Part shown: in pieces, positions 1,807-18,082 of the stretch | Position numbering within the stretch: position 1 is the stretch's first letter | How the letters are laid out: each line of letters starts with the position of its first letter | IMG/VR virus record: IMGVR_UViG_3300022602_004665 | Location: 1-22,342 of that record | Origin: a virus | Length of the DNA stretch: 22,342 nt | Strand: one strand, 5' to 3' | Position numbers and translations under genes: made by a program | The notes under the pieces: model-generated | Database searches by the model: none | Told to the model about the DNA's origin: nothing | Seen by the model: the letters and a program-made list of their open reading frames with translations, nothing else

Positions 1807-1834
1807 TTGATATTGTTATTATGGTTAGTATAAA
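1807..1834 (+). promoter_or_regulatory. Sigma70-type promoter for the hsd operon
   Basis: TTGATA (1807-1812), a 16-bp spacer and TATAAA (1829-1834) put the transcription start near 1841. That lies downstream of the alternative in-frame ATG at 1821 and upstream of the ATG at 1878, so it helps choose the hsdR start. A small TGAGCT-ATA-AGCTCA hairpin lies further upstream at 1726-1740. Confidence 0.55.
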
Positions 1835-1877
1835 ACCAAGTTTTGACATTTATTTGATAATTAATAATGTATTTTAT

Positions 1878-4661
1878 ATGGCCTTAAATCAAAACCCAGA
1901 GCAGCTTGCTCGCGATCAAATTGATGTCTTATTAAGGCAATCGGGTTGGGCTGTGCAAAATCTCAAAAATATTAATCTTAATGAAGGCCTTGGTCAGGCA
2001 ATAAGAGAATATCAAACTGATGTAGGTCCAGCGGATTATGTACTGTTTGTAAATAAAAAAGCGGTGGGTGTTATTGAGGCAAAGCGTGAAGCTGAGGGTC
2101 ATCATTTAACAAAGCATGAATCGCAAACAGAAGGTTATGCTGGCGCTAAATTAAAATGGGTAAATAATAAAGACCCGCTCCCCTTTTTATACGAGAGTAC
2201 CGGTGTTATTACTCGTTTTACAGATGCAAGAGATCCCAAGCCTCGATCTCATGAAGTGTTTAGTTTTCATCGTCCCGAAACCATTCAAGAGTGGCTGGAA
2301 CAAGGCGTTAGCCTCAAAGGACGTTTGCAGACAATTCCAACATTAAATCCAGAACACTTACCAGCGAGTGAATTGCATTTACGCGACTGTCAAGAAGTTG
2401 CGATTTCAAATCTTGAGTCATCATTTAAATTGGGACATCCACGAGCCCTTATTCAGATGGCTACTGGGGCTGGTAAGACATATACAGCAATCACAGCAAT
2501 ATATCGCTTACTTAAGTATGGAAATGCAAAGCGTATTTTGTTTTTAGTTGACACTAAAAACCTTGGTGAGCAGGCTGAACAAGAGATGATGTCGTATGTG
2601 CCAATTGATGACAACAGAAAATTTACAGAGCTTTATAACGTACAGAGATTAAAGTCCTCATTTATTGCCAAGGATAGTCAGGTATGTATTTGCACTATTC
2701 AGCGCCTTTATTCGATCCTCAAGGAGAAGGAGTTAGATGAGGCGACTGAGGAAAGTAATCCTGCTGAATTATTTCAAGCCAAAGCACCTATACCCGTTGT
2801 TTATAGTGAAAAGATTCCTCCAGAGTTTTTTGATTTTATTTTTATTGATGAGTGTCATCGCTCGATCTATAACCTTTGGCAGCAGGTTCTTGATTATTTC
2901 GATGCAAGCCTGATTGGCCTCACTGCAACGCCGGATAACCGTACATATGGTTTCTTTAAAAAGAATGTAGTGAGTGACTATAGCCATGAAAAAGCGGTGG
3001 CGGATGGCGTTAATGTGGGAAATGAGGTTTACGTAATTGATACCCAAGTTACTCAGCAGGGTGCAGTCATTCCAGCTAAATTACTAGTCGAGAGACGTGA
3101 GAAATTAACGCGTAAAAAACGCTGGGAACAACAAGATGAGGATGAGCAGTATTCAGCAACTCAGCTTGATCGCAATATTGTTAATCCGGATCAAATTAGG
3201 ACGGTAATTCGCACATTCCGAGATAAATTGCCGGAAATATTTCCAGGGCGAACTGAGGTTCCTAAAACGCTCATTTTTGCCAAAACTGATAGTCATGCTG
3301 ATGACATCATTCAAACGGTAAGAGAAGAGTTTGGTGAAGGTAATGCCTTTTGTAAAAAGATTACCTACAAAATCGACGAAGATCCTAAGTCGGTCCTCGC
3401 TCAATTTCGGAATGACTACTATCCGCGTATAGCGGTAACGGTTGATATGGTTGCTACAGGAACCGATGTCAGGCCTCTAGAGTGCCTTCTCTTCATGAGA
3501 GATGTGAAGAGTCGCAATTACTTTGAGCAAATGAAAGGGCGTGGAACTCGCACCCTGGATCTAGATGATCTGAGAAAGGTCACGCCTTCAGCTGTAAGTG
3601 CAAAAACACACTATGTCATTGTTGATGCTGTTGGTGTAACTAAATCTTTAAAAACCGCAAGTCAGCCATTAATTACAAAGCCTACGATCCCTTTAAAAGA
3701 TCTAGCCATGAGCATCATGATGGGCGCCACGGATGAAGATACAGTGAGCTCGTTAGCAGCGCGTTTAGCCAGATTGACTAAGCAACTTGATCCTGATGAT
3801 CAAAGACAAATTCGTCTTGCGGCTGGAGGTTTAGAGTTAACTCAAATTGTGGGGCAGCTTTTTAGCTCAATTGATGCGGATAATGTGGAGGCTAAAGCAT
3901 TGGATTTGGCAGGTCTCCCTGCGGGATCTGAATTAAGCGAAGAAAAACTGCAGGCAGCACAAGCCCAATTAGTATCAACGGTTGCGCAAGTCTTCAATGG
4001 ACCATTGGTTGATCTGATTGATTCCATTAGGCGCGAGAAAGAGCAGACAATTGATCGGGATAATTTAGATGTGCTGCTTAGAGCTGAATGGGATAAGGAT
4101 TCAGCTTCAAACGCACAAGCCATGGTTGATGAGTTTGCTGAGTACTTGAAGGCAAATCAAGATAGCATCACGGCTTTGACAATATTCTTTAGTCAGCCAT
4201 ATCGCAGACGTGAGCTAAGTTTTGATTTAATTCGGCAGGTTCTGGATAAGTTGAAGCTGGATAAGCCCAAACTAGCCCCATTAAGGATTTGGCATGCCTA
4301 TCGGCAATTGGATGAGTACAAAGGCTCTCAGCCAGCAAATGAGCTAACTGCATTAGTGGCTTTAATTCGCAGGGTATGTGAAATAGATAGCAAGATCTCG
4401 CCATTTGATGAAACAGTGCGCCGGAATTTCCAAAACTGGGTAATGAAACATCACTCTGGTGGCGGGGAGAAGTTTAATGAGGAGCAAATGCAATGGTTAA
4501 GGATGATCCGTGATCATGTGGCAAACTCTTTCCATATAGAGCGTAATGACTTGGAAATGTCACCCTTTGATGGGCAAGGCGGATTGGGAAAAATGTATCA
4601 ACTGTTTGGTGAAAAGATGGATCCCCTGATTGATGAATTGAATGAAGTGTTGGTTGCTTAA
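1878..4661 (+). CDS. hsdR: Type I restriction enzyme, R subunit (HsdR)
   Basis: The motor and nuclease subunit of a type I restriction-modification complex, which translocates and cuts DNA lacking the host methylation. The 927-residue product has an N-terminal PD-(D/E)xK nuclease (Asp53 in ADYVLF; Glu67 and Lys69 in IEAKR). A superfamily 2 helicase follows: Walker A MATGAGKT (194-201), DECH box (324-327), TATP (349-352), VATGTDV (525-531) and arginine-finger motif QMKGRGTR (551-558). A long helical C-terminus probably binds the methylase core. Every catalytic residue I can check is present. I chose the ATG at 1878 because MALNQNPEQLARD is the family-like N-terminus and the promoter's start point falls after the ATG at 1821; neither ATG has a good ribosome site. 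It heads an R-S-M operon. Confidence 0.95.
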   Translation: MALNQNPEQLARDQIDVLLRQSGWAVQNLKNINLNEGLGQAIREYQTDVGPADYVLFVNKKAVGVIEAKREAEGHHLTKHESQTEGYAGAKLKWVNNKDPLPFLYESTGVITRFTDARDPKPRSHEVFSFHRPETIQEWLEQGVSLKGRLQTIPTLNPEHLPASELHLRDCQEVAISNLESSFKLGHPRALIQMATGAGKTYTAITAIYRLLKYGNAKRILFLVDTKNLGEQAEQEMMSYVPIDDNRKFTELYNVQRLKSSFIAKDSQVCICTIQRLYSILKEKELDEATEESNPAELFQAKAPIPVVYSEKIPPEFFDFIFIDECHRSIYNLWQQVLDYFDASLIGLTATPDNRTYGFFKKNVVSDYSHEKAVADGVNVGNEVYVIDTQVTQQGAVIPAKLLVERREKLTRKKRWEQQDEDEQYSATQLDRNIVNPDQIRTVIRTFRDKLPEIFPGRTEVPKTLIFAKTDSHADDIIQTVREEFGEGNAFCKKITYKIDEDPKSVLAQFRNDYYPRIAVTVDMVATGTDVRPLECLLFMRDVKSRNYFEQMKGRGTRTLDLDDLRKVTPSAVSAKTHYVIVDAVGVTKSLKTASQPLITKPTIPLKDLAMSIMMGATDEDTVSSLAARLARLTKQLDPDDQRQIRLAAGGLELTQIVGQLFSSIDADNVEAKALDLAGLPAGSELSEEKLQAAQAQLVSTVAQVFNGPLVDLIDSIRREKEQTIDRDNLDVLLRAEWDKDSASNAQAMVDEFAEYLKANQDSITALTIFFSQPYRRRELSFDLIRQVLDKLKLDKPKLAPLRIWHAYRQLDEYKGSQPANELTALVALIRRVCEIDSKISPFDETVRRNFQNWVMKHHSGGGEKFNEEQMQWLRMIRDHVANSFHIERNDLEMSPFDGQGGLGKMYQLFGEKMDPLIDELNEVLVA

Positions 4662-4663
4662 GA

Positions 4664-6142
4664 ATGTCTGGGATAAAGACTAAAGTTCCATCTTCATGGG
4701 AGCTTGTAAAGCTTGGTGACTTTGTAGAGAGCCAAAAAGGGAAAAAGCCTAAAAACGAAGCTAAGAATGAGTCTTCTTCGCACCCAATTCCATATGTAGA
4801 TATTCAGGCTTTTGAGGAGAAGATTGTCCGCACATGGACGGATGGCGTAGGGTGCCATCCATGTTACGAGTCTGACTTTTTAATGGTTTGGGACGGGTCT
4901 CGATCTGGTTTGGTTGGGAAAGGGATGAATGGCGCTCTTGGGAGTACTCTAGTACGCATTAACTTTCCAATGATGGTGAATGATTACGCATACTATTTTT
5001 TGCAGTCGAAATATCAGCAAATAAATACGAGAGCCAAAGGAAGTGGGACGCCCCACGTAGACCCTGATTTACTTTGGAACTATGACTTCCCGATTCCGCC
5101 GTTGGCTGAGCAACATCGGATCGTCCAAAAAATTGAAGAATTATTTTCTGAGCTTGAGAGTGGGATTGATAACCTTAAGCTCGCACAAGTGCAGCTTAAG
5201 GTTTATCGCCAAGCCTTACTAAAGGATGCTTTTGAGGGTAAATTGACTGCTCAATGGCGAGAAAAAATACTGGGAAATATTGAGACTGCTTTTGAATTAA
5301 AAAAAAGAATTCGGCTGGAGGCGATAGATTTATACCAACGTGAATTTTCCCTATGGAAATCATCTGCAAAGGTTAGGCGGAAACCTCGACCTTTGAAATT
5401 TCCTCCTGAACTAGTATTAGAGGAGCGTCAAAAATTATGCAATTTACCTGATTGCTGGTCTTTTGAAAAATTGGGTGAATTATTTAAGGTTTATGTTGGC
5501 TCCACCCCTAGTAGAAAGTCTGCGGATTTTTGGGGGGGGTCGATTCCATGGATATCCAGCGGGGAAGTTTCCTTTTGCTCGATAAACGATACAAAAGAGA
5601 AAATTACGCAGCGTGGCTATGAGAGCATTTCTGCGCATATTCATCCTCCTGGAACCTTAATGTTGGCGATGATTGGTGAGGGTAAAACCCGCGGACAAGT
5701 TGCCATTTTGGGTGTCGAGGCATCACATAATCAAAATACCGCAGCAATTAGAGTTGCTGGGTCTGGGGTTCCCCCTCTTTATTTATATCACTACCTTACC
5801 TATTGCTATGAGAATACAAGAAAACTGGGGTCAGGCAATAACCAAAAAGCACTTAATATGGATAGGGTTGAAAATTTAATATTTCCATTGACTAGTATTC
5901 GGGAGATGGAAGAAGTGGTCCAAATTATTGATCAAAAACTTTCAATAATTGAAGCATTTGATGGAAATATTAAAACCGCAATAAATTGCTCCGAAAGCCT
6001 TCGCCAAGCTATCCTCCAAAAAGCCTTTTCTGGAAAATTGGTCCCTCAAGACCCAAATGACGAGCCGGCATCTAAATTGCTCTCCCGCATTAAAGCGGAA
6101 GTTTCTAAATCAAAACTCTCTAAAAAGAAAAAAGTCCAATGA
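4664..6142 (+). CDS. hsdS: Type I restriction-modification specificity subunit (HsdS)
   Basis: The DNA-recognition subunit, which directs both methylation and restriction to a bipartite target. The 492 residues show the standard two-repeat plan. Target-recognition domain 1 covers about 10-145 and ends in the FPIPPLAEQHRIV motif. A central helical spacer at about 150-200 includes QALLKDAFEGKLTAQWR. Domain 2 covers about 265-415. A distal helical repeat includes RQAILQKAFSGKL, echoing the central one. The full length and two intact domains argue for a functional bipartite specificity. It starts 2 bp after the hsdR stop and overlaps hsdM by 4 bp (ATGA), so translation is coupled. The recognised sequence cannot be read from the protein. 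Confidence 0.95.
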   Translation: MSGIKTKVPSSWELVKLGDFVESQKGKKPKNEAKNESSSHPIPYVDIQAFEEKIVRTWTDGVGCHPCYESDFLMVWDGSRSGLVGKGMNGALGSTLVRINFPMMVNDYAYYFLQSKYQQINTRAKGSGTPHVDPDLLWNYDFPIPPLAEQHRIVQKIEELFSELESGIDNLKLAQVQLKVYRQALLKDAFEGKLTAQWREKILGNIETAFELKKRIRLEAIDLYQREFSLWKSSAKVRRKPRPLKFPPELVLEERQKLCNLPDCWSFEKLGELFKVYVGSTPSRKSADFWGGSIPWISSGEVSFCSINDTKEKITQRGYESISAHIHPPGTLMLAMIGEGKTRGQVAILGVEASHNQNTAAIRVAGSGVPPLYLYHYLTYCYENTRKLGSGNNQKALNMDRVENLIFPLTSIREMEEVVQIIDQKLSIIEAFDGNIKTAINCSESLRQAILQKAFSGKLVPQDPNDEPASKLLSRIKAEVSKSKLSKKKKVQ

Positions 6143-7614
6143 ACGCCACTGCATCAATTGTTACCAAGGTCTGGAGTTTTTGTACCGTCCTCAAGGATGA
6201 TGGCGTTAGCTATGGGGACTATCTTGAGCAACTGACTTATTTAATCTTCCTAAAGATGGCTGATGAATATAGCCAGCCGCCTTATAGTCGAAAGGTTGCT
6301 ATACCTAAGGCATATGACTGGAGTAGCTTGAAGTCAAAGCGCGGCGCTGAGCTAGAGGTTCACTACGTGACTCTATTGCGTGAGCTTGCTAATAAGCCAG
6401 GAATGCTGGGCACTATATTTACTAAATCCCAAAACAAGATTCAGGACCCGGCCAAACTCTCTCGCCTTATTGAGTTAGTCAATGAGACTAAGTGGGTAAC
6501 AATGGGCGCGGATGTAAAAGGCGATATCTATGAGGGCTTACTGGAGCGTAACGCAGAGGATACTAAATCTGGAGCAGGGCAATACTTTACGCCTAGAGCT
6601 TTAATTAAGGCTATGGTTGAGTGTGTTAGGCCTCAACCGAGCAAAACTATTGCAGACCCAGCTGCAGGTACGGGCGGTTTTTTCTTGGCAGCCTATGACT
6701 TTCTAGTTAGCGCCTATCAAATGAATCAATCGCAAAAAGCATTTTTAAAGCGTGAAACTTTTTTTGGTAATGAGATTGTTGCTGGAACGCGTCGATTAGC
6801 CCTAATGAATATGTTCTTGCACAACATTGGGGAAATCGATGGTGAAAGTATGATTTCCCCTAATGATGCATTGGTAGCCGATAGTGGTAAGCGATTTGAT
6901 TACGTGCTGGCAAACCCGCCATTTGGTAAAAAAAGCTCCATGAGCTTTACGAATGATGAAGGTGAGCAGGAAAAAGACGAATTAACTTATAACCGCCAAG
7001 ATTTTTGGGCCACAACGTCCAATAAGCAGTTGAACTTCGTGCAACACATTCGCACTATGCTTAAAACTACTGGGCAGGCAGCAATAGTTGTTCCGGACAA
7101 TGTCTTATTTGAGGGCGGTGCCGGTGAGACAGTTCGCAAAAAGCTTTTAGAGAATACAGACTTGCATACGATTTTGCGTCTTCCAACGGGCATTTTCTAT
7201 GCTAACGGCGTGAAAGCAAACGTTTTATTTTTCGATAATCATGCGGCCAGTAAGGAGCCCTGGACTAAGGAAGTTTGGTTTTACGATTATCGAACTAATA
7301 TCCACCATACTCAGAAAAAGAAGCCATTACGGCCAGAAGATTTAAAGGAGTTTATTGACTGCTATAACCCGTTAGATCGCCATAAGCGTAAAGAACTGTG
7401 GAATGAGCAGAAAAATCCTGAAGGGCGCTGGCGTAAATTTAGCTATGAGCAAATTGTGGCGCGTGATAAGACAAGCTTAGACATATTTTGGTTGAAGGAT
7501 AAAAGTCTGGCTGATTTAGATAATCTGCCAGAGCCTGAGGTATTAGCCGAGGAAATTGTTCAAAATATTGAGGCTGCACTTAATAGTTTTAGGGAAGTAG
7601 CATCGGGGCTCTAA
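6139..7614 (+). CDS. hsdM: Type I restriction-modification N6-adenine methyltransferase (HsdM)
   Basis: Transfers a methyl group from S-adenosylmethionine to adenine N6 within the site read by HsdS, and forms the core of both the methylase and the restriction complex. The 491-residue protein has the N-terminal helical HsdM domain (about 1-120), the GQYFTPR motif (147-153), the AdoMet-binding motif DPAAGTGGFF (173-182) and the catalytic NPPF (259-262). The length is normal for the family and no motif is missing. The ATG overlaps the hsdS stop as ATGA. Having hsdR and hsdM in one intact operon suggests that restriction is active and self-protection is cosupplied. Confidence 0.95.
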   Translation: MNATASIVTKVWSFCTVLKDDGVSYGDYLEQLTYLIFLKMADEYSQPPYSRKVAIPKAYDWSSLKSKRGAELEVHYVTLLRELANKPGMLGTIFTKSQNKIQDPAKLSRLIELVNETKWVTMGADVKGDIYEGLLERNAEDTKSGAGQYFTPRALIKAMVECVRPQPSKTIADPAAGTGGFFLAAYDFLVSAYQMNQSQKAFLKRETFFGNEIVAGTRRLALMNMFLHNIGEIDGESMISPNDALVADSGKRFDYVLANPPFGKKSSMSFTNDEGEQEKDELTYNRQDFWATTSNKQLNFVQHIRTMLKTTGQAAIVVPDNVLFEGGAGETVRKKLLENTDLHTILRLPTGIFYANGVKANVLFFDNHAASKEPWTKEVWFYDYRTNIHHTQKKKPLRPEDLKEFIDCYNPLDRHKRKELWNEQKNPEGRWRKFSYEQIVARDKTSLDIFWLKDKSLADLDNLPEPEVLAEEIVQNIEAALNSFREVASGL

Positions 7615-9212: not shown

Positions 9213-10115
9213 ATGAATTATTACGAGCATCACATAGGAGATTACGCAGAAGCTACTGCACATCTGACCTTTATCGAAGACGCTACTTATAGCCGTTTAA
9301 TTAGAAAGTATTACGCCACAGAAAAACCATTGCCGATTGATGTAAAGCTCGTGCAACGATTGATCAATGCACGATCAAAAGAAGAAAAAAATTCAGTTGT
9401 CTCAATCCTGAATGAATTTTTCACTCTCACTAATGATGGTTGGAGACAAGTGCGCTGTGATCATGAAATAGCCCGCTTTAAAGATAAGCAAAATAAGGCT
9501 AGACGCAGTGCTGAAGGTCGTTGGCAAGCATTTCAAGCAGATGATTTGCGCCAAGAAAATGAACCTCACAATGTATGCGTTCGCATTGCGACCGCATTGC
9601 GACCGCAATGCTCACCAGACACCAAACACCAGACACCAGTCACCAATCTCCATACACCAGACAAACAAAACAATGGGGGTGAAATCGAAAAAGTTTTACA
9701 AGGCGATGGTAAAAGGAAAAAACAAATTCAAACTCTTTTTGAAAAGGAGGGCTTGAATATTGGAGCAGACGATGAGCGTATTGCTCAGTTGATTCAACAA
9801 GGCCTAATCGTTGAAGAGGTTGAGGAGGCTATTGCCCAGGCAAAGGAAATGCGAAGGAGGGCATCAAGCTCTACCCCGATCAATGCTGGATTTGTTCTGG
9901 CCATTCTGAAAGGGATGCGTAGGAAGGCTCAAGCCCTTGATTCTTCTGAAGAGACCTGGTGGAAATCGAATCAGGGAATTGACCTTAAAGGACGAGAACT
10001 CGGAATGCGTGCTCAAGGCTCGGAGAGTTATGACTCTTTCAAAACCAGAATCTTTGCTGAGTTGCGTAAGAGAAAAGAGATCCCAGCTACAACGGAGGCT
10101 TCCCATGCAAGCTAA
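9213..10115 (+). CDS. YdaU/DUF1376-type phage replication protein
   Basis: A 300-residue protein with an N-terminal DUF1376 (YdaU) domain: MNYYEHHIGDYAEATAHLTF through about residue 105, including the LIRKYYATEKPLP and KARRSAEGRW motifs. This winged-helix-like module is found in prophage proteins that take the place of the lambda O replication initiator. A low-complexity Thr/Pro/His/Gln linker at about 124-155 follows, then a basic helical C-terminal part. The start has GGAGA at 9199-9203. The linker is encoded by tandem DNA repeats that look like iterons (9582-9662). It heads the rightward operon and overlaps the next gene by 11 bp. No helicase or helicase loader follows, so replication probably depends on host or helper proteins. 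Confidence 0.8.
   Translation: MNYYEHHIGDYAEATAHLTFIEDATYSRLIRKYYATEKPLPIDVKLVQRLINARSKEEKNSVVSILNEFFTLTNDGWRQVRCDHEIARFKDKQNKARRSAEGRWQAFQADDLRQENEPHNVCVRIATALRPQCSPDTKHQTPVTNLHTPDKQNNGGEIEKVLQGDGKRKKQIQTLFEKEGLNIGADDERIAQLIQQGLIVEEVEEAIAQAKEMRRRASSSTPINAGFVLAILKGMRRKAQALDSSEETWWKSNQGIDLKGRELGMRAQGSESYDSFKTRIFAELRKRKEIPATTEASHAS
9582..9662 (+). repeat. Iteron-like tandem repeat array inside the ydaU-type gene; candidate replication origin
   Basis: Two parts lie back to back. CGCATTGCGAC occurs twice (9582-9592, 9593-9603), followed by the inverted CGCAATGC (9604-9611). After a 2-nt gap come seven contiguous 7-bp units close to ACCARAC from 9614 to 9662 (ACCAGAC, ACCAAAC, ACCAGAC, ACCAGTC, ACCAATC, TCCATAC, ACCAGAC). 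An A-rich stretch follows from about 9663. Iterons plus an A/T-rich tract inside the initiator gene is the arrangement of lambda ori within the O gene. Origin function is inference. Confidence 0.55.
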
Positions 10116-10347
10116 CCCAGGTATAGCTGGAATCATTGATCGACCCGATATGGAAGATTTCCCAATCGGATCAATCGTTAAAACCCCAAGTGGCCGAATA
10201 GGCACAGTTGTAAAGCATCGTGGGGCCCAAAGTCGTCATGACCTATTCCAGAGAATCATCATTGAGTTTGATGAGCCCTTTGGCGATTCAGTAGCATTGC
10301 AACCTCATCTTTTGAAGATGATCAGAAGACCAGAAGCATCATCATGA
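10105..10347 (+). CDS. Hypothetical phage protein with KOW/SH3-like beta fold (80 aa)
   Basis: An 80-residue protein with alternating beta strands: FPIGSIVKTPSGRIGTVVKH, then RIIIEFDEP and a terminal PHLLKMIRR. The pattern resembles small SH3/KOW-type barrels, but I do not recognise a named family. The start at 10105 has a GGAGG at 10094-10098, 6 nt upstream; longer versions in this frame only shadow the preceding gene. It overlaps that gene by 11 bp and terS by 4 bp (ATGA), so it is embedded in a tightly coupled operon. Confidence 0.65.
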   Translation: MQANPGIAGIIDRPDMEDFPIGSIVKTPSGRIGTVVKHRGAQSRHDLFQRIIIEFDEPFGDSVALQPHLLKMIRRPEASS

Positions 10348-10796
10348 TTGAAAACAATCAAAAGAAATCAAAGCCAAAGGCAAAGCCAGCAAATAAAGGA
10401 GGAGCTAGGCCAGGAGCAGGGCGTAAAGAGGGCAGCCTCACCAAGAGGACTCGTGAGATTGCAGAGGTAGCCGCCGCGCAGGGTATTACACCTTTAGAAG
10501 TCATGATGAGCACCATGATGGCGCTCTACAAGGAAGCTGAAAATTGCACTAAGCATGATGATCATGCTCATGAAGGTGTTGGTCATGATCATGACATCAT
10601 GATCACCGAGAGTCGAATCAAACTCCTAAACATGGCTGCCACCATAGCAAGACATGCTGCCCCTTATGTTCACCCGCGTCTATCTGCAATCGAGCATACG
10701 GGTAAGGATGGGGCGCCACTACAAAGTGGCGTCTTGGTGGTGCCAGGAGCGATGAGTATGGATGATTGGGAGCAAGCCGCCCAAGCAAAACACTAG
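10344..10796 (+). CDS. terS: Terminase small subunit-like protein
   Basis: Predicted DNA-recognition subunit of the packaging motor. The 150-residue protein begins with a Lys-rich tail and the GGARPGAGRKEGSLTKRTRE motif typical of phage terminase small subunits and related DNA-binding proteins. Helices follow, then an unusual His/Asp-rich segment (HDDHAHEGVGHDHD at 71-84) and a C-terminal part ending MDDWEQAAQAKH. It is coupled to the upstream gene by an ATGA overlap and overlaps the terL start by about 35 bp. The position directly before terL supports the call. The His/Asp insertion could bind metal, and its DNA is full of TCATGA-type palindromes (see findings). Confidence 0.75.
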   Translation: MIENNQKKSKPKAKPANKGGARPGAGRKEGSLTKRTREIAEVAAAQGITPLEVMMSTMMALYKEAENCTKHDDHAHEGVGHDHDIMITESRIKLLNMAATIARHAAPYVHPRLSAIEHTGKDGAPLQSGVLVVPGAMSMDDWEQAAQAKH

Positions 10797-12144: not shown

Positions 12145-12290
12145 AAGTAGGCAGGAGATCAGGATTTATATGTATTTTTTAATTGCCTACTTGTTTTTGG
12201 GGGCAATTAGGAGATAGAATTTACCCGCGACTAGTGTGCTTGTTCCACGGCAAGCTCCTCCACTTTGTGGGCTGGTCGCTCCTATTCTTA
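12145..12290 (+). ncRNA. Candidate structured RNA between terL and the DUF3800 gene
   Basis: The gap folds in several ways by eye. AAGTAGGCA (12145-12153) pairs with TGCCTACTT (12184-12192), followed by GTTTTT. This excludes TAATTGCC (12180-12187) pairing with GGCAATTA (12202-12209). Next is a junction: AGAAT/ATTCT (12216-12220/12284-12288), GCGACTAG/CTGGTCGC (12227-12234/12272-12279), and two inner arms, GCTTG/CAAGC (12238-12242/12251-12255) and CCAC/GTGG (12260-12263/12267-12270). A strong terminator follows at 12293. No known RNA family is recognised. Confidence 0.35.
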
Positions 12291-13001
12291 GGGCCAGCGC
12301 TGAATCATAAATTCATCGCTGGCTTTTATTTTTTTCCAGCAATCCTCAATTTCTTTTTCATGCCAACTTTTAGCTGGCGCTGTAGCATTTTCATATCTTC
12401 CCGCCATATATACGATTAAATCTGCTACCTGAAGAAATCTGCTGTGGTGTGATTGCGTAAAATACACTGTATCAAGCAATCTTCCAAGTGGACGTCCGTA
12501 GTACATCGGAGTTTTACCCTGGCTTTTATATTCAGAAAAATCTACCACGGCATTGGTAACCTCATCTGCCTCATAGTCGCCAAACACTAAACCAATGTCC
12601 TTTACTTTATCTAGATATCCACAAAATCTCTCAAGCATTAACATTAGACCAAGTCTGTATGGTGGCATGGCATAAAAGTACTTTTCTTTATGCTCAATCA
12701 CATTTATACATACAACTCTTATTGGAATTTTGTTACTAATTAAAAAATTAGTGACATCTTTAAAGACTTGAACACGCTCTGCTAATTTTCGACCTTTCGC
12801 ATTACTTTTCCCATGAAAGATATCTTTTCCATGAATTTCATTTGATTGAGTCATCGCCCTTGATCCAAAAAAATTAAACGCGATTTGGGAAAGCGTATTT
12901 TCAAACTCAATCGCTTTTTGATCTGGAATCAATAATCCACCCAGAAAAAAATATGGATTACCCTCAAAGTGTTTATTTTCGTCAAAGTAGCAAAGATGCA
13001 T
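12288..13001 (-). CDS. DUF3800 domain protein (putative RNase H-fold nuclease), cargo gene
   Basis: A 237-residue protein matching the DUF3800 family: the N-terminal CYFDEN (Asp7, Glu8), NEIHGKDIF (54-62), the mid-domain acidic GDYE (141-144) and the signature QVADLIVYM (191-199, Asp194). The family is predicted to have an RNase H-like fold with acidic active-site residues and is frequent in prophage and defence cargo; its activity is not established. It lies on the opposite strand between terL and the portal gene, which are usually adjacent in phages, and is more AT-rich than its neighbours, so it looks like an inserted cargo gene (a moron). The ribosome site is weak. Its 3' end contains a terminator facing the late genes. 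Confidence 0.8.
   Translation of the reverse strand: MHLCYFDENKHFEGNPYFFLGGLLIPDQKAIEFENTLSQIAFNFFGSRAMTQSNEIHGKDIFHGKSNAKGRKLAERVQVFKDVTNFLISNKIPIRVVCINVIEHKEKYFYAMPPYRLGLMLMLERFCGYLDKVKDIGLVFGDYEADEVTNAVVDFSEYKSQGKTPMYYGRPLGRLLDTVYFTQSHHSRFLQVADLIVYMAGRYENATAPAKSWHEKEIEDCWKKIKASDEFMIQRWP
12293..12335 (+). terminator. Strong intrinsic terminator after terL, inside the 3' end of the DUF3800 gene
   Basis: GCCAGCG (12293-12299) pairs with CGCTGGC (12317-12323), and TGAAT (12301-12305) with ATTCA (12311-12315), across one mismatch and a 5-nt loop. TTTTATTTTTTT follows. It acts on plus-strand transcripts from terL and lies within the antisense strand of the last codons of the DUF3800 gene. Confidence 0.8.
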
Positions 13002-16320: not shown

Positions 16321-16352
16321 AAACAACTTCAGGGTTAGCCCTGAAGTTGTTT
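16321..16352. terminator. Bidirectional terminator between scaffold and abiEii
   Basis: A 14-bp perfect stem: AAACAACTTCAGGG (16321-16334) pairs with CCCTGAAGTTGTTT (16339-16352) around a TTAG loop. Three bases of the loop are the complement of the abiEii stop codon, and the scaffold stop is 3 bp away. T-runs on both sides allow it to end both converging transcripts. Confidence 0.85.
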
Positions 16353-17390
16353 TGATGCAAATTGAATTGATTCTAAGATTTCATCGAACGTAGGGGTTAT
16401 GCCAAAAATCATCGTCGACATTTGCTCATAATCTCTGCGAAGAGCGGGAATCATTGCCTCGCTAGGGTAGATTAAGAAATTACCTTGTGCTGCAGAATTT
16501 TGTTGATAGTCTTTATCAAAAAAGAAGATAGATGCATGCAGGGCGCATTCTTTACCAAGATTCATATCCTTGATGGCATTTTGACCAACCGCATTATTCA
16601 AAAGCATGTGTAGATCATAGTAATGGCGAGAAATGCGATTGCCATCATTCCTTAGGCTTCTCCGTGCTTCAAACCAAGCGCGCAAACCATGAGCGATGAC
16701 AGCCTTATCCCAGAAGGTTCTTTCTGGCGCTATGCAATTCACATTGGGCACGCTCAAGCCGCCGCCGATAAATTCTTGAGCAACGTAGGGATTGATTGTG
16801 ATGAGCCTGCTGGGATCTAACGCTGATTTGGCGCCAGCTTCAATCTTGACCTTGGATTCAATATAGTCATCCTTGCCCGATGCTTCTAGAGATGGATACT
16901 CAACTAGTAAGGTCTGTGCATCTTTGTCGGTGGTATCTATGACAACCTTAAGGGCAGGCATCGAGATACCAGCATTGTTTAATTCGTTCTGAATTTGTAA
17001 GGTAAGACGATCTTTTAGATCGCCAAGAATATAGGTAGAGCAAGCAGTCTTAATCTGACCTAAGTATTCGTTACGTTTATTTCTGCCCCAGCTTTGTATA
17101 GTTGCAATATCGGTTGAATGTCCGATATCTTCCCGATACACCGTGATATCAATATCCTCAGAAAAGCGTGAGATCAAGTCATAAGCTTTTGAAAGGGAAG
17201 TGCCACCCTTAAATAAGAGGCGTGGCCCACCCTCTAGTTTGTCGTTGAATAGTAGATCCAAGACAAAGCAAACCCAAAAGTCTTTCTCGACATTTCGTAA
17301 TGGTGTGCCTAAGCGAACTGCAGTCTCTAGGAAGAGCGCGCGCCTATCGCTTTCGCTAGCCTGAAGGACTTTGAGAAAATTACTATTCAT
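16335..17390 (-). CDS. abiEii: AbiEii-type nucleotidyltransferase toxin
   Basis: The toxin half of an AbiE abortive-infection/toxin-antitoxin module. The 351-residue protein shows the nucleotidyltransferase signature LLFKGGTSLSKAYDL (58-72) followed by EDIDIT with Asp79 and Asp81, and the downstream conserved ERTFWDK. Members of this family transfer nucleotides to RNA and stop growth, which limits phage spread. It starts 11 bp after the antitoxin gene with an AAGG ribosome site in the gap, so the two form one operon. It lies in reverse orientation between the scaffold and capsid genes, an unusual place for cargo. Motifs look intact. Confidence 0.9.
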   Translation of the reverse strand: MNSNFLKVLQASESDRRALFLETAVRLGTPLRNVEKDFWVCFVLDLLFNDKLEGGPRLLFKGGTSLSKAYDLISRFSEDIDITVYREDIGHSTDIATIQSWGRNKRNEYLGQIKTACSTYILGDLKDRLTLQIQNELNNAGISMPALKVVIDTTDKDAQTLLVEYPSLEASGKDDYIESKVKIEAGAKSALDPSRLITINPYVAQEFIGGGLSVPNVNCIAPERTFWDKAVIAHGLRAWFEARRSLRNDGNRISRHYYDLHMLLNNAVGQNAIKDMNLGKECALHASIFFFDKDYQQNSAAQGNFLIYPSEAMIPALRRDYEQMSTMIFGITPTFDEILESIQFASKQLQG

Positions 17391-17401
17391 TTGCCTTCAG
17401 T

Positions 17402-18082
17402 TTAATGAGAGAGTGCAATTTGGGGTAAATCGCTAGAAAGACCCTTGAGTAATGGGTGCATCCATGCTGGTAAGTGCGATAGATCCTTCTTGATGTCTCG
17501 CGCAATACTTGCCCCAGCCTTTGGGTCATTAATGATTCTAGATAAGGTGGCTTTAATATCAGCTTGAGCGGAAGGATCTTTTTGCTTGATTCCATCTTTG
17601 AGCCAGTGAAGTGCCTGAACGACACGCATAGCAGGGCGATCTGCCCAGATTAACTTACTAGGTGATGCCAACTTAAATTGAATAGTGAGGTTTCCAATTT
17701 GAACGGGCTTGATGCGGGCATCGGTATGCACGATCACCTTGCCTGGAACCGCATTGGTTAGCCCTAAGTCATTAGCGGCCGTCATGCCATCAATAAGCAT
17801 GCGCGCGCTATCGCGCCTAGCAATAGCCCAGATCACATTCTGATAGTTGGGCTGAGATGTTTTGCCGGTTAATGGGTTAACCCGTGGACGATCGTATAGG
17901 CCGTGATCGATGCGACGTAAGTCACCTTTATTGGTGAGGCGCTGGAGGGTTTTGTCTACCGCGCTACGGTTGCCTAAGTCGAGAAAATCCTTTGCCGTCC
18001 AAACCTTATCGGCTTGGCTACGGCTAATGCGCCGAGCAATCAGCGCATTGAGAGGGATTTTGGCGTTAACTAGTGCTTTCAT
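17402..18082 (-). CDS. abiEi: AbiEi-type antitoxin/regulator (DUF6088 family)
   Basis: The antitoxin and autorepressor of the AbiE pair. The 226-residue protein has an N-terminal winged-helix domain (about 1-70: VWTAKDFLDLGNRSAVDKTLQRL, RRIDHGLYDRP) and a C-terminal AbiEi domain with NDLGLTNAVPGKVIVHTD and TIQFKLAS segments, as in DUF6088 proteins that accompany AbiEii toxins. It is cotranscribed with abiEii (11-bp gap). The -10 box lies only 9 bp before the ATG, so the mRNA may be nearly leaderless. Inverted repeats upstream are likely its own operator. In known AbiE systems the antitoxin represses the operon and counters the toxin without tight binding. Confidence 0.85.
   Translation of the reverse strand: MKALVNAKIPLNALIARRISRSQADKVWTAKDFLDLGNRSAVDKTLQRLTNKGDLRRIDHGLYDRPRVNPLTGKTSQPNYQNVIWAIARRDSARMLIDGMTAANDLGLTNAVPGKVIVHTDARIKPVQIGNLTIQFKLASPSKLIWADRPAMRVVQALHWLKDGIKQKDPSAQADIKATLSRIINDPKAGASIARDIKKDLSHLPAWMHPLLKGLSSDLPQIALSH

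Follow-up and report, generated by a model that had tools for sequence, protein, structure and literature searches.

A candidate phage replication origin within the linker-coding DNA of a DUF1376 (YdaU-type) gene

Two adjoining blocks of short repeats in a DUF1376 (YdaU-type) gene probably constitute a phage replication origin that lies inside the phage's initiator gene, in the stretch coding for the linker, and works by the mechanism proposed below. Based on sequence comparison, we give this reading a probability of about 0.72. The repeats were analyzed in a viral stretch of 22,342 nucleotides, referred to here as the window. The first block holds three palindromic iterons and the second, directly 3' of them, is a tandem array in which CCA recurs every 7 bp. 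As judged from the conservation analyses, the array is a DNA-level element under purifying selection on DNA (or RNA).

DUF1376 has no assigned function in Pfam and a literature search for it was essentially empty. A prior description of the array was not found in the literature on DUF1376, ydaU/ydaV, coding-sequence iterons or oriJ. DUF1376 genes are very common in phages: a DUF1376 scan of viral stretches returned at least 593 relatives among the 600 matches listed. If the proposed reading is true, inspection by eye would be enough to place the origin of a very large set of phages to within about 50 bp, the DUF1376 family would have a fixed function as initiators, and a fixed motif beside variable iterons would provide a clean system for studying how non-AAA+ initiators open DNA. 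A DNA element of this kind can pass for protein low complexity. The features of the region are as follows.

9213-10115, plus strand: DUF1376 (YdaU-type) gene encoding 300 aa; its product is a candidate initiator of phage replication, and the putative origin lies within the gene
9216-9473, plus strand: DUF1376 domain (residues 2-87), a predicted helical bundle; winged-helix resemblance weak and non-significant
9507-9524, plus strand: segment SAEGRW, inside a long helix (residues 80-114, helix from models); class-specific, paired with the GCGNNCGCA iteron class
9576-9585, plus strand: iteron 1, TGCGTTCGCA, interrupted palindrome
9587-9596, plus strand: iteron 2, TGCGACCGCA
9598-9607, plus strand: iteron 3, TGCGACCGCA; copies 11 bp apart
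9608-9613, plus strand: junction ATGCTC ahead of the first CCA unit; conserved form CT[AC]NCCA across classes
9614-9662, plus strand: CCA array, units ACCAGAC, ACCAAAC, ACCAGAC, ACCAGTC, ACCAATC, TCCATAC, ACCAGAC; candidate opening or single-strand loading element
9663-9673, plus strand: short A-rich tail AAACAAAACAA, about 11 nt
9696-10100, plus strand: C-terminal folded module (residues 162-296); this part is exchanged among relatives that share the N-terminal domain and the array

The repeat blocks and the gene that contains them

Tandem Repeats Finder recovered block 1 with an 11-bp period (9582-9611, score 53) and block 2 with a 7/21-bp period (9613-9663, score 74), the latter being the top-scoring one in the 22 kb. 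Outside these blocks the window has no further copy of either motif in this form. The repeats reported in the preliminary description are real. Block 1 occupies 9576-9607 and is made of an interrupted palindrome, TGCGNNCGCA, present in three tandem copies that are separated by a single A/T (W). It had been read as two direct 11-bp repeats with an inverted third, beginning at 9582; the 11-bp repeats are present, but the “inverted third” is a palindrome read the other way and the block begins at 9576. These three copies are the only TGCGNNCGCA sites in the whole window (0.26 expected; three were reached in 0 of 100 shuffles). In block 2, CCA occurs seven times at exact 7-bp steps from 9615 to 9657, and all five CCANNNNCCANNNNCCA windows in the 22 kb fall inside the array (0.15 expected; five were reached in 0 of 100 shuffles). 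The earlier reading of this block as seven 7-bp units near ACCARAC was correct as to seven contiguous heptamers, but the invariant part is CCA and the unit is better written NCCANNN. The A-rich tract said to follow the array is likewise there, about 11 nt long, but it is not an A+T region of the lambda type, since among 183 homologues the A+T content is raised just in the first ~10 nt past the last CCA (0.71) and is 0.43-0.49 thereafter. The A+T content of the array is 56%, against 48% for the genes.

The gene product matches the PF07120 profile with E=6.4e-27 and 94.2 bits, against a curated cut-off of 30.1, and the PHROGs annotation for it is “primosomal protein.” The Pfam scan of the window protein detected DUF1376 only, with no N-terminal homology to the lambda O family, and the O-like PHROGs matched a minority of relatives, the window protein not being among them. 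AlphaFold, run on a 62-sequence alignment, predicted two folded parts and a low-confidence linker (pLDDT about 50) at residues about 115-160. Both repeat blocks sit wholly in the DNA coding for this linker, between the two folded parts, and the Pfam and AlphaFold results together uphold the placement inside the linker of a YdaU-type gene. In a fold comparison of the DUF1376 domain, winged-helix proteins were recurrent in the list and none reached E 0.001; thus the domain was not identified as DNA-binding by its fold.

Conservation of the array at the DNA level

In a first scan of 2.9 million viral contigs, an exact 21-mer of the array was present in just 56 stretches; in about 40 it fell in the linker of a DUF1376 gene, and these genes belong to different subfamilies. 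Homologues were then gathered by the N-terminal domain alone, without use of the array, in order to avoid circularity; this gave two sets of 80 viral loci, which overlap for the most part, and 54 loci on chromosomes. Nearly all of these homologues carry 3-9 units just past the domain.

To separate the DNA pattern from the protein, synonymous codons were shuffled within each gene, leaving the protein unchanged, for 34 representatives less than 75% identical (200 shuffles). Pairs of CCA 7 nt apart numbered 125, compared with 20.6 +/- 4.2 after shuffling (maximum 31). Distances of 14, 21 and 28 nt were also far over the shuffled expectation in these representatives, and other distances were not. 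Runs of three or more CCA at 6-8 nt were present in all 34 representatives (3.8 expected by shuffling) and runs of four or more in 28 of 34 (1.3 expected). The same test outside the linker counted one CCA run in the N-terminal domain and two in the C-terminal part. Threonine codons also track the phase of the array: ACA is used in 30 of 32 cases at one phase, compared with 16% outside, and ACC in 29 of 29 at another, although the way a unit is defined in part dictates the ACC count, which is not so for the ACA count.

Across 54 different sequences from the group to which the window belongs, nucleotide diversity (pi) was 0.000 at all 21 CCA bases, whether these fell at codon position 1, 2 or 3; the register was set with units 1 and 2, and units 3-7 are independent of it. 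In the same sequences diversity was 0.16-0.19 at the other unit positions, where many changes were nonsynonymous, and 0.358 at the ordinary third positions of the domain. The usual coding pattern is likewise inverted in the iteron block of the 54 relatives: the NN and W positions vary, including at second codon positions, while most third positions are fixed. The preliminary description had raised the prospect of a DNA phase that is kept while the amino acids vary, and this was confirmed: the shuffling (34 representatives), the CCA diversity (54 sequences), the phase-bound codons and the core-only scans described below all agree. Because CCA is fixed while the peptides change, and because of the shuffling result, the array is not explained by amino-acid selection, slippage or composition.

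Distribution and spacing of the arrays

IMG/VR was scanned with the core pattern ACCANNN x5, which is free of amino-acid assumptions. Among the first 120 matches listed, which do not form a random sample, 111 lay in ORFs with a DUF1376 domain, on the coding strand and in 111 different proteins, and several of the other nine were truncated DUF1376 members. Control patterns fell in DUF1376 genes less often among the matches listed: ACCANNNN (8 bp) in 27 of 120, ACCANN (6 bp) in 7 of 120 and CAACNNN in 4 of 120. The last of these, a permuted core applied as CAACNNN x5, was rejected as a CCA-free control, as its four DUF1376 hits carry CCA repeats themselves. The 8-bp scan was also discarded as a clean control, as its 27 hits among the 120 matches listed are DUF1376 genes with 8-bp ACCA arrays; these arrays are instead evidence for drift of the period. 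For example, within the iteron class of the window there are CCA arrays of 6 bp (L649), 7 bp (the window) and 8 bp (L352), which encode unrelated peptides. The combined nonredundant set contains 742 spacings of 7, 31 of 8 and 23 of 6, and the Pseudomonas aeruginosa element CP124656 mixes spacings of 7, 6, 8 and 7 within one array. Low-GC elements carry the unit AACCANN and the peptide NQEPITNNHKP, and high-GC elements the unit CACCAGA and the peptide HQTPDTR.

The CCA unit belongs to the branch of the family with the motif MNYYxxHxGDY, found in Beta- and Gammaproteobacteria, a Chlorobiaceae phage and a Syntrophomonadaceae genome. For this branch the repeat is, as had been suggested, a general signature previously read as protein low complexity; the suggestion does not extend to YdaU proteins as a whole, given that enteric YdaU genes have a 6-bp array and some alphaproteobacterial genes have none. 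The enteric ADYL branch, which includes ydaU of the K-12 Rac prophage, has iterons of the GTTCAA type followed by (GATACA)n with 1-7 units. The codon bias in these arrays is set by the DNA, GAT being used in 184 of 184 cases compared with 66% outside. Close relatives among the enteric YdaU loci (L725-L804) differ in having 1-7 units of (GATACA)n, with near-invariant AACTAATAAAGAT and GATCTAAAAG flanking the array, and this variation is possibly a copy-number polymorphism of the candidate origin element.

Other linker arrays are (CCCTAA)n in a Microcystis phage, (TTCACC)n in Plectonema, (AGAAG)n in Pseudomonas UFJF and (CCAACC)n in Azospirillum. On inspection, a clear array was not found in the DUF1376 genes of Rhizobium and Bradyrhizobium phages, nor was one found in the short chromosomal DUF1376 members L463 and L464. 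From the sequences compared, the wider rule is iterons followed by a short tandem array, and CCA is the commonest code seen. Plasmids with a DUF1376 gene are few and one has its own RepM, so that plasmids give no clean replicon test.

Several minor observations were made in these scans. In the Microcystis phage Mwe-JY08 (L479), the (CCCTAA)n array lies in the linker of the DUF1376 gene at 1504-2343, directly 3' of GGGTT-type iterons; CCCTAA is also the unit of the vertebrate telomere repeat. A reverse-strand ORF of similar size at 2184-3050 of L018 contains a CCA array and no detected DUF1376 domain, and is perhaps a different initiator family with the same code. Long microsatellites of the (ACCAGAC)n type are found outside DUF1376 genes in the viral contigs L013, L023/L024, L048 and L055.

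Iteron classes and the matching protein segment

About five classes of iterons can be told apart in the block that adjoins the array on its 5' side, and every class shares the CCA array. Each class is listed here with the protein segment that follows the DUF1376 domain.

GCGNNCGCA: SAxxRW
GGGTT/AACCC: GGRPKK
GTTCAAC: GKAS
GTCACG/GCAACG: RHRxxRxxLF
ACGAAYCG: EAKR

When segment was tabulated against iteron class for 188 nonredundant genes, the five matching cells held 118 of them and the mismatching cells 0; the remaining genes had no listed segment or too few copies of the motif to be classified. The coding stretches of the class-specific segment and of the iterons do not overlap. This covariation is consistent with co-evolution and does not prove it, because both elements lie in one gene, where common descent can mimic co-evolution, and because the classes were drawn after looking at the data.

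Proposed mechanism

In the proposed mechanism, the three 11-bp palindromic iterons would first be recognized as duplex DNA by the basic helix just after the conserved DUF1376 domain. The palindromes are spaced at roughly one turn of the helix, which fits a protein that binds duplex DNA, and the joint variation of iterons and segment between lineages is consistent with recognition by that helix. Secondly, the array of CCA units, which are about 7 nt apart and are always on the coding strand and 3' of the iterons, would act as the opening and loading element. Its units follow each other at 6, 7 or 8 nt, in some cases with different steps in one array, and do not keep in phase with the helix, which suits reading as a single strand. 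Third, the melted CCA-bearing strand would be held, in a sequence- and strand-specific manner, by a factor common to all lineages. Since the C-terminal modules, the loader genes and the iterons all vary, this holder should be the DUF1376 core or a universal host factor; most simply, it would be the DUF1376 domain of the iteron-bound protein. Lastly, the exchangeable C-terminal module and, where present, a downstream DnaC/DnaB-type protein would bring the helicase. The parts of this scheme are not equally secure. It is quite probable that the region is a replication origin and equally so that the DUF1376 protein binds the iterons, while the chance that the CCA array acts as a single strand is slightly below even.

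Alternative explanations

Action of the array in the initiator mRNA, as the site of an RNA-binding protein, in Rho-dependent events or antitermination, or in translation control, rather than in origin DNA, would suit several of its properties: it is always on the coding strand, its repeats are rich in A and C, pair poorly and in this look like sites that are read as single-stranded RNA, and its spacing is regular yet tolerant (6-8 nt). We consider this unlikely, as a class-specific, duplex-like iteron block of 11-bp palindromes always adjoins the array through the junction CT[AC]NCCA and RNA control needs neither the block nor the junction.

Replication slippage, or a recombination junction for C-terminal modules, could have left the array behind as a by-product with no role in an origin, but this is quite unlikely. 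Some arrays are near-perfect tandem copies, the copy number ranges from 3 to 9, and C-terminal parts differ between relatives whose N-terminal part and array match, all of which such an origin of the repeats would produce. It would not account for interior units that are CCA in 558 of 563 cases while the other four positions diverge, for zero CCA diversity in 54 relatives, for the constant position and strand next to the iterons or for the retention of CCA through changes of period.

Contiguous direct 7-bp repeats are bound by ribbon-helix-helix proteins, and the heptamers could on that ground be bound as duplex by a repressor or partition protein of the cooperative kind, acting in autoregulation or incompatibility. 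This is very unlikely: periods of 6, 7 and 8 bp, mixed in CP124656, put the units on different faces of the helix, and no common partner gene was seen across the annotated loci.

Finally, the view that the repeats are a protein feature only, in which the peptide of a disordered Q/T/P/D-rich linker is selected and the DNA period follows, can draw on the position of the array in a disordered linker and on the regular peptide (HQTPDTR) of many members, but is barely credible when the period is lost on synonymous shuffling, one amino acid is encoded by codons that differ by phase, CCA is frozen even at third positions while nonsynonymous changes are common elsewhere in the unit, and 6-, 7- and 8-bp arrays with unrelated peptides follow one iteron class.

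Structures and signals other than an origin code were also tried for the array and rejected. A G-quadruplex on the opposite strand, where GG occurs every 7 nt, was set aside as the leading idea: it does not explain why the A of CCA is as invariant as the CC, and regularly spaced GG is missing from the GATACA and AGAAG arrays. Start sites for host primase (CTG) were dismissed as the base following CCA varies freely.

Comparison with known origins and gene neighbourhood

In the lambda ori, which lies inside gene O, the O protein binds to the iterons and the DNA opens in an A+T-rich region of 40 bp next to them (PMC5043065). The candidate origin is similar in its location in an initiator gene, in its tandem palindromic iterons and in having the putative opening element on one side. 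It differs in that the iterons are 10-11 bp long and not 19 bp, the N-terminal domain of the protein is DUF1376, a different Pfam family from that of O, and the 40-bp A+T-rich region is absent, a sequence-constrained CCA array standing in its place. The lambda-O pattern proposed in the preliminary description is retained for the iterons in the initiator gene but not for the A+T tract, and the comparison is backed by the gene order of relatives and by O-like C-terminal matches.

The order CI-CII-initiator-helicase loader is also shared with lambda, and O-like families are matched by some of the C-terminal modules. Isolated phages and elements have the gene flanked by CI/Cro/CII-type regulators on one side and by a replication gene on the other, although not every record shows both sides. 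The downstream gene encodes a DnaC/IstB-like protein in Vibrio 1.052.A and Pseudomonas UFJF_PfDIW6, a DnaB-like helicase in Acinetobacter KEN_01, Plectonema Lbo240 and Vibrio 1.003.O, a primase-helicase in ValSw3-3 and P. aeruginosa CP124656, and a DnaA-like protein in a Rhizobium phage. The lambda-like order CI-CII-DUF1376-DnaC/DnaB is found in isolated relatives and not in the window, where no helicase or loader gene follows the initiator at 10116-10796; a short unknown ORF and then a terminase-like gene are found there. The window initiator must therefore rely on host proteins or on a distant gene. Within the family, the C-terminal part has matches to O-like initiators, to a DnaD-like helicase loader and to a replisome organizer. 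From the gene order and these C-terminal matches, the DUF1376 protein is likely to have the function that O has in lambda.

Most of the nearest relatives whose host is named come from Polynucleobacter genomes. Between L058 and L067, and among other Polynucleobacter loci, the C-terminal halves of the DUF1376 proteins are wholly different while the N-terminal domain and array are near-identical, as if C-terminal modules had been swapped just 3' of the array.

Plasmid and chromosomal origins provide precedents for a second repeat set. TrfA and RepE, which have no AAA+ domain, bind the iteron duplex and, where the DNA has opened, a single strand of the repeats as well (PMC4081077). The RK2 oriV/TrfA and F oriS/RepE systems resemble the candidate origin in combining duplex iterons with a second set of repeats, whose sequence in the plasmids matters on one strand (PMC4081077). 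A second, strand-asymmetric, sequence-constrained array beside duplex-type sites is found here as well, although the plasmid repeats are A+T-rich 13-mers and those described here are CCA heptamers within coding sequence, with 56% A+T against 48%. DnaA reads both DnaA-boxes, as duplex, and DnaA-trios, as a single strand (PMC8287927). As in the basal unwinding system of bacterial oriC, duplex boxes stand beside a short-period array, which in oriC is read single-stranded and is kept across otherwise differing origins (PMC8287927). The differences are a period of about 7 instead of 3 nt, a phage protein that is not DnaA (AAA+), and CCA in place of the trio sequence. It is on the TrfA/RepE and DnaA precedents, together with the features of the array, that the array is proposed as a single-strand opening and loading element. 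More tentatively, and with the odds somewhat against it, the CCA array may be a phage counterpart of the DnaA-trios: a single-strand opening code read by the DUF1376 domain and hidden as protein low complexity, which would have stayed constant in phages from several bacterial phyla while the iterons and their recognition segment turned over, with other branches using GATACA, CCCTAA and TTCACC codes.

The ydaU gene of the K-12 Rac prophage belongs to the same Pfam family, and its linker likewise has iterons, of the GTTCAA type, with a short tandem array behind them, but the array unit is the 6-bp GATACA/GATAAA and not CCA. The gene adjoins ydaV, the gene for an ATP-binding protein. Rac has been reported to have an active origin, oriJ (PMC3945230).

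GC skew in three complete phages and in the window has turning points that follow gene orientation and do not single out the array. Elsewhere in the window, a gene for a DUF3800 protein (12288-13001, minus strand) lies between the terminase and portal genes on the opposite strand. An AbiEii-type toxin (PF08843, E 1.2e-37) and a DUF6088 partner are encoded at 16335-18082 on the minus strand, inside the structural block and opposite to it. A complete-looking type I restriction-modification operon (R, S, M) occupies 1821-7614 on the plus strand, beside prophage genes.
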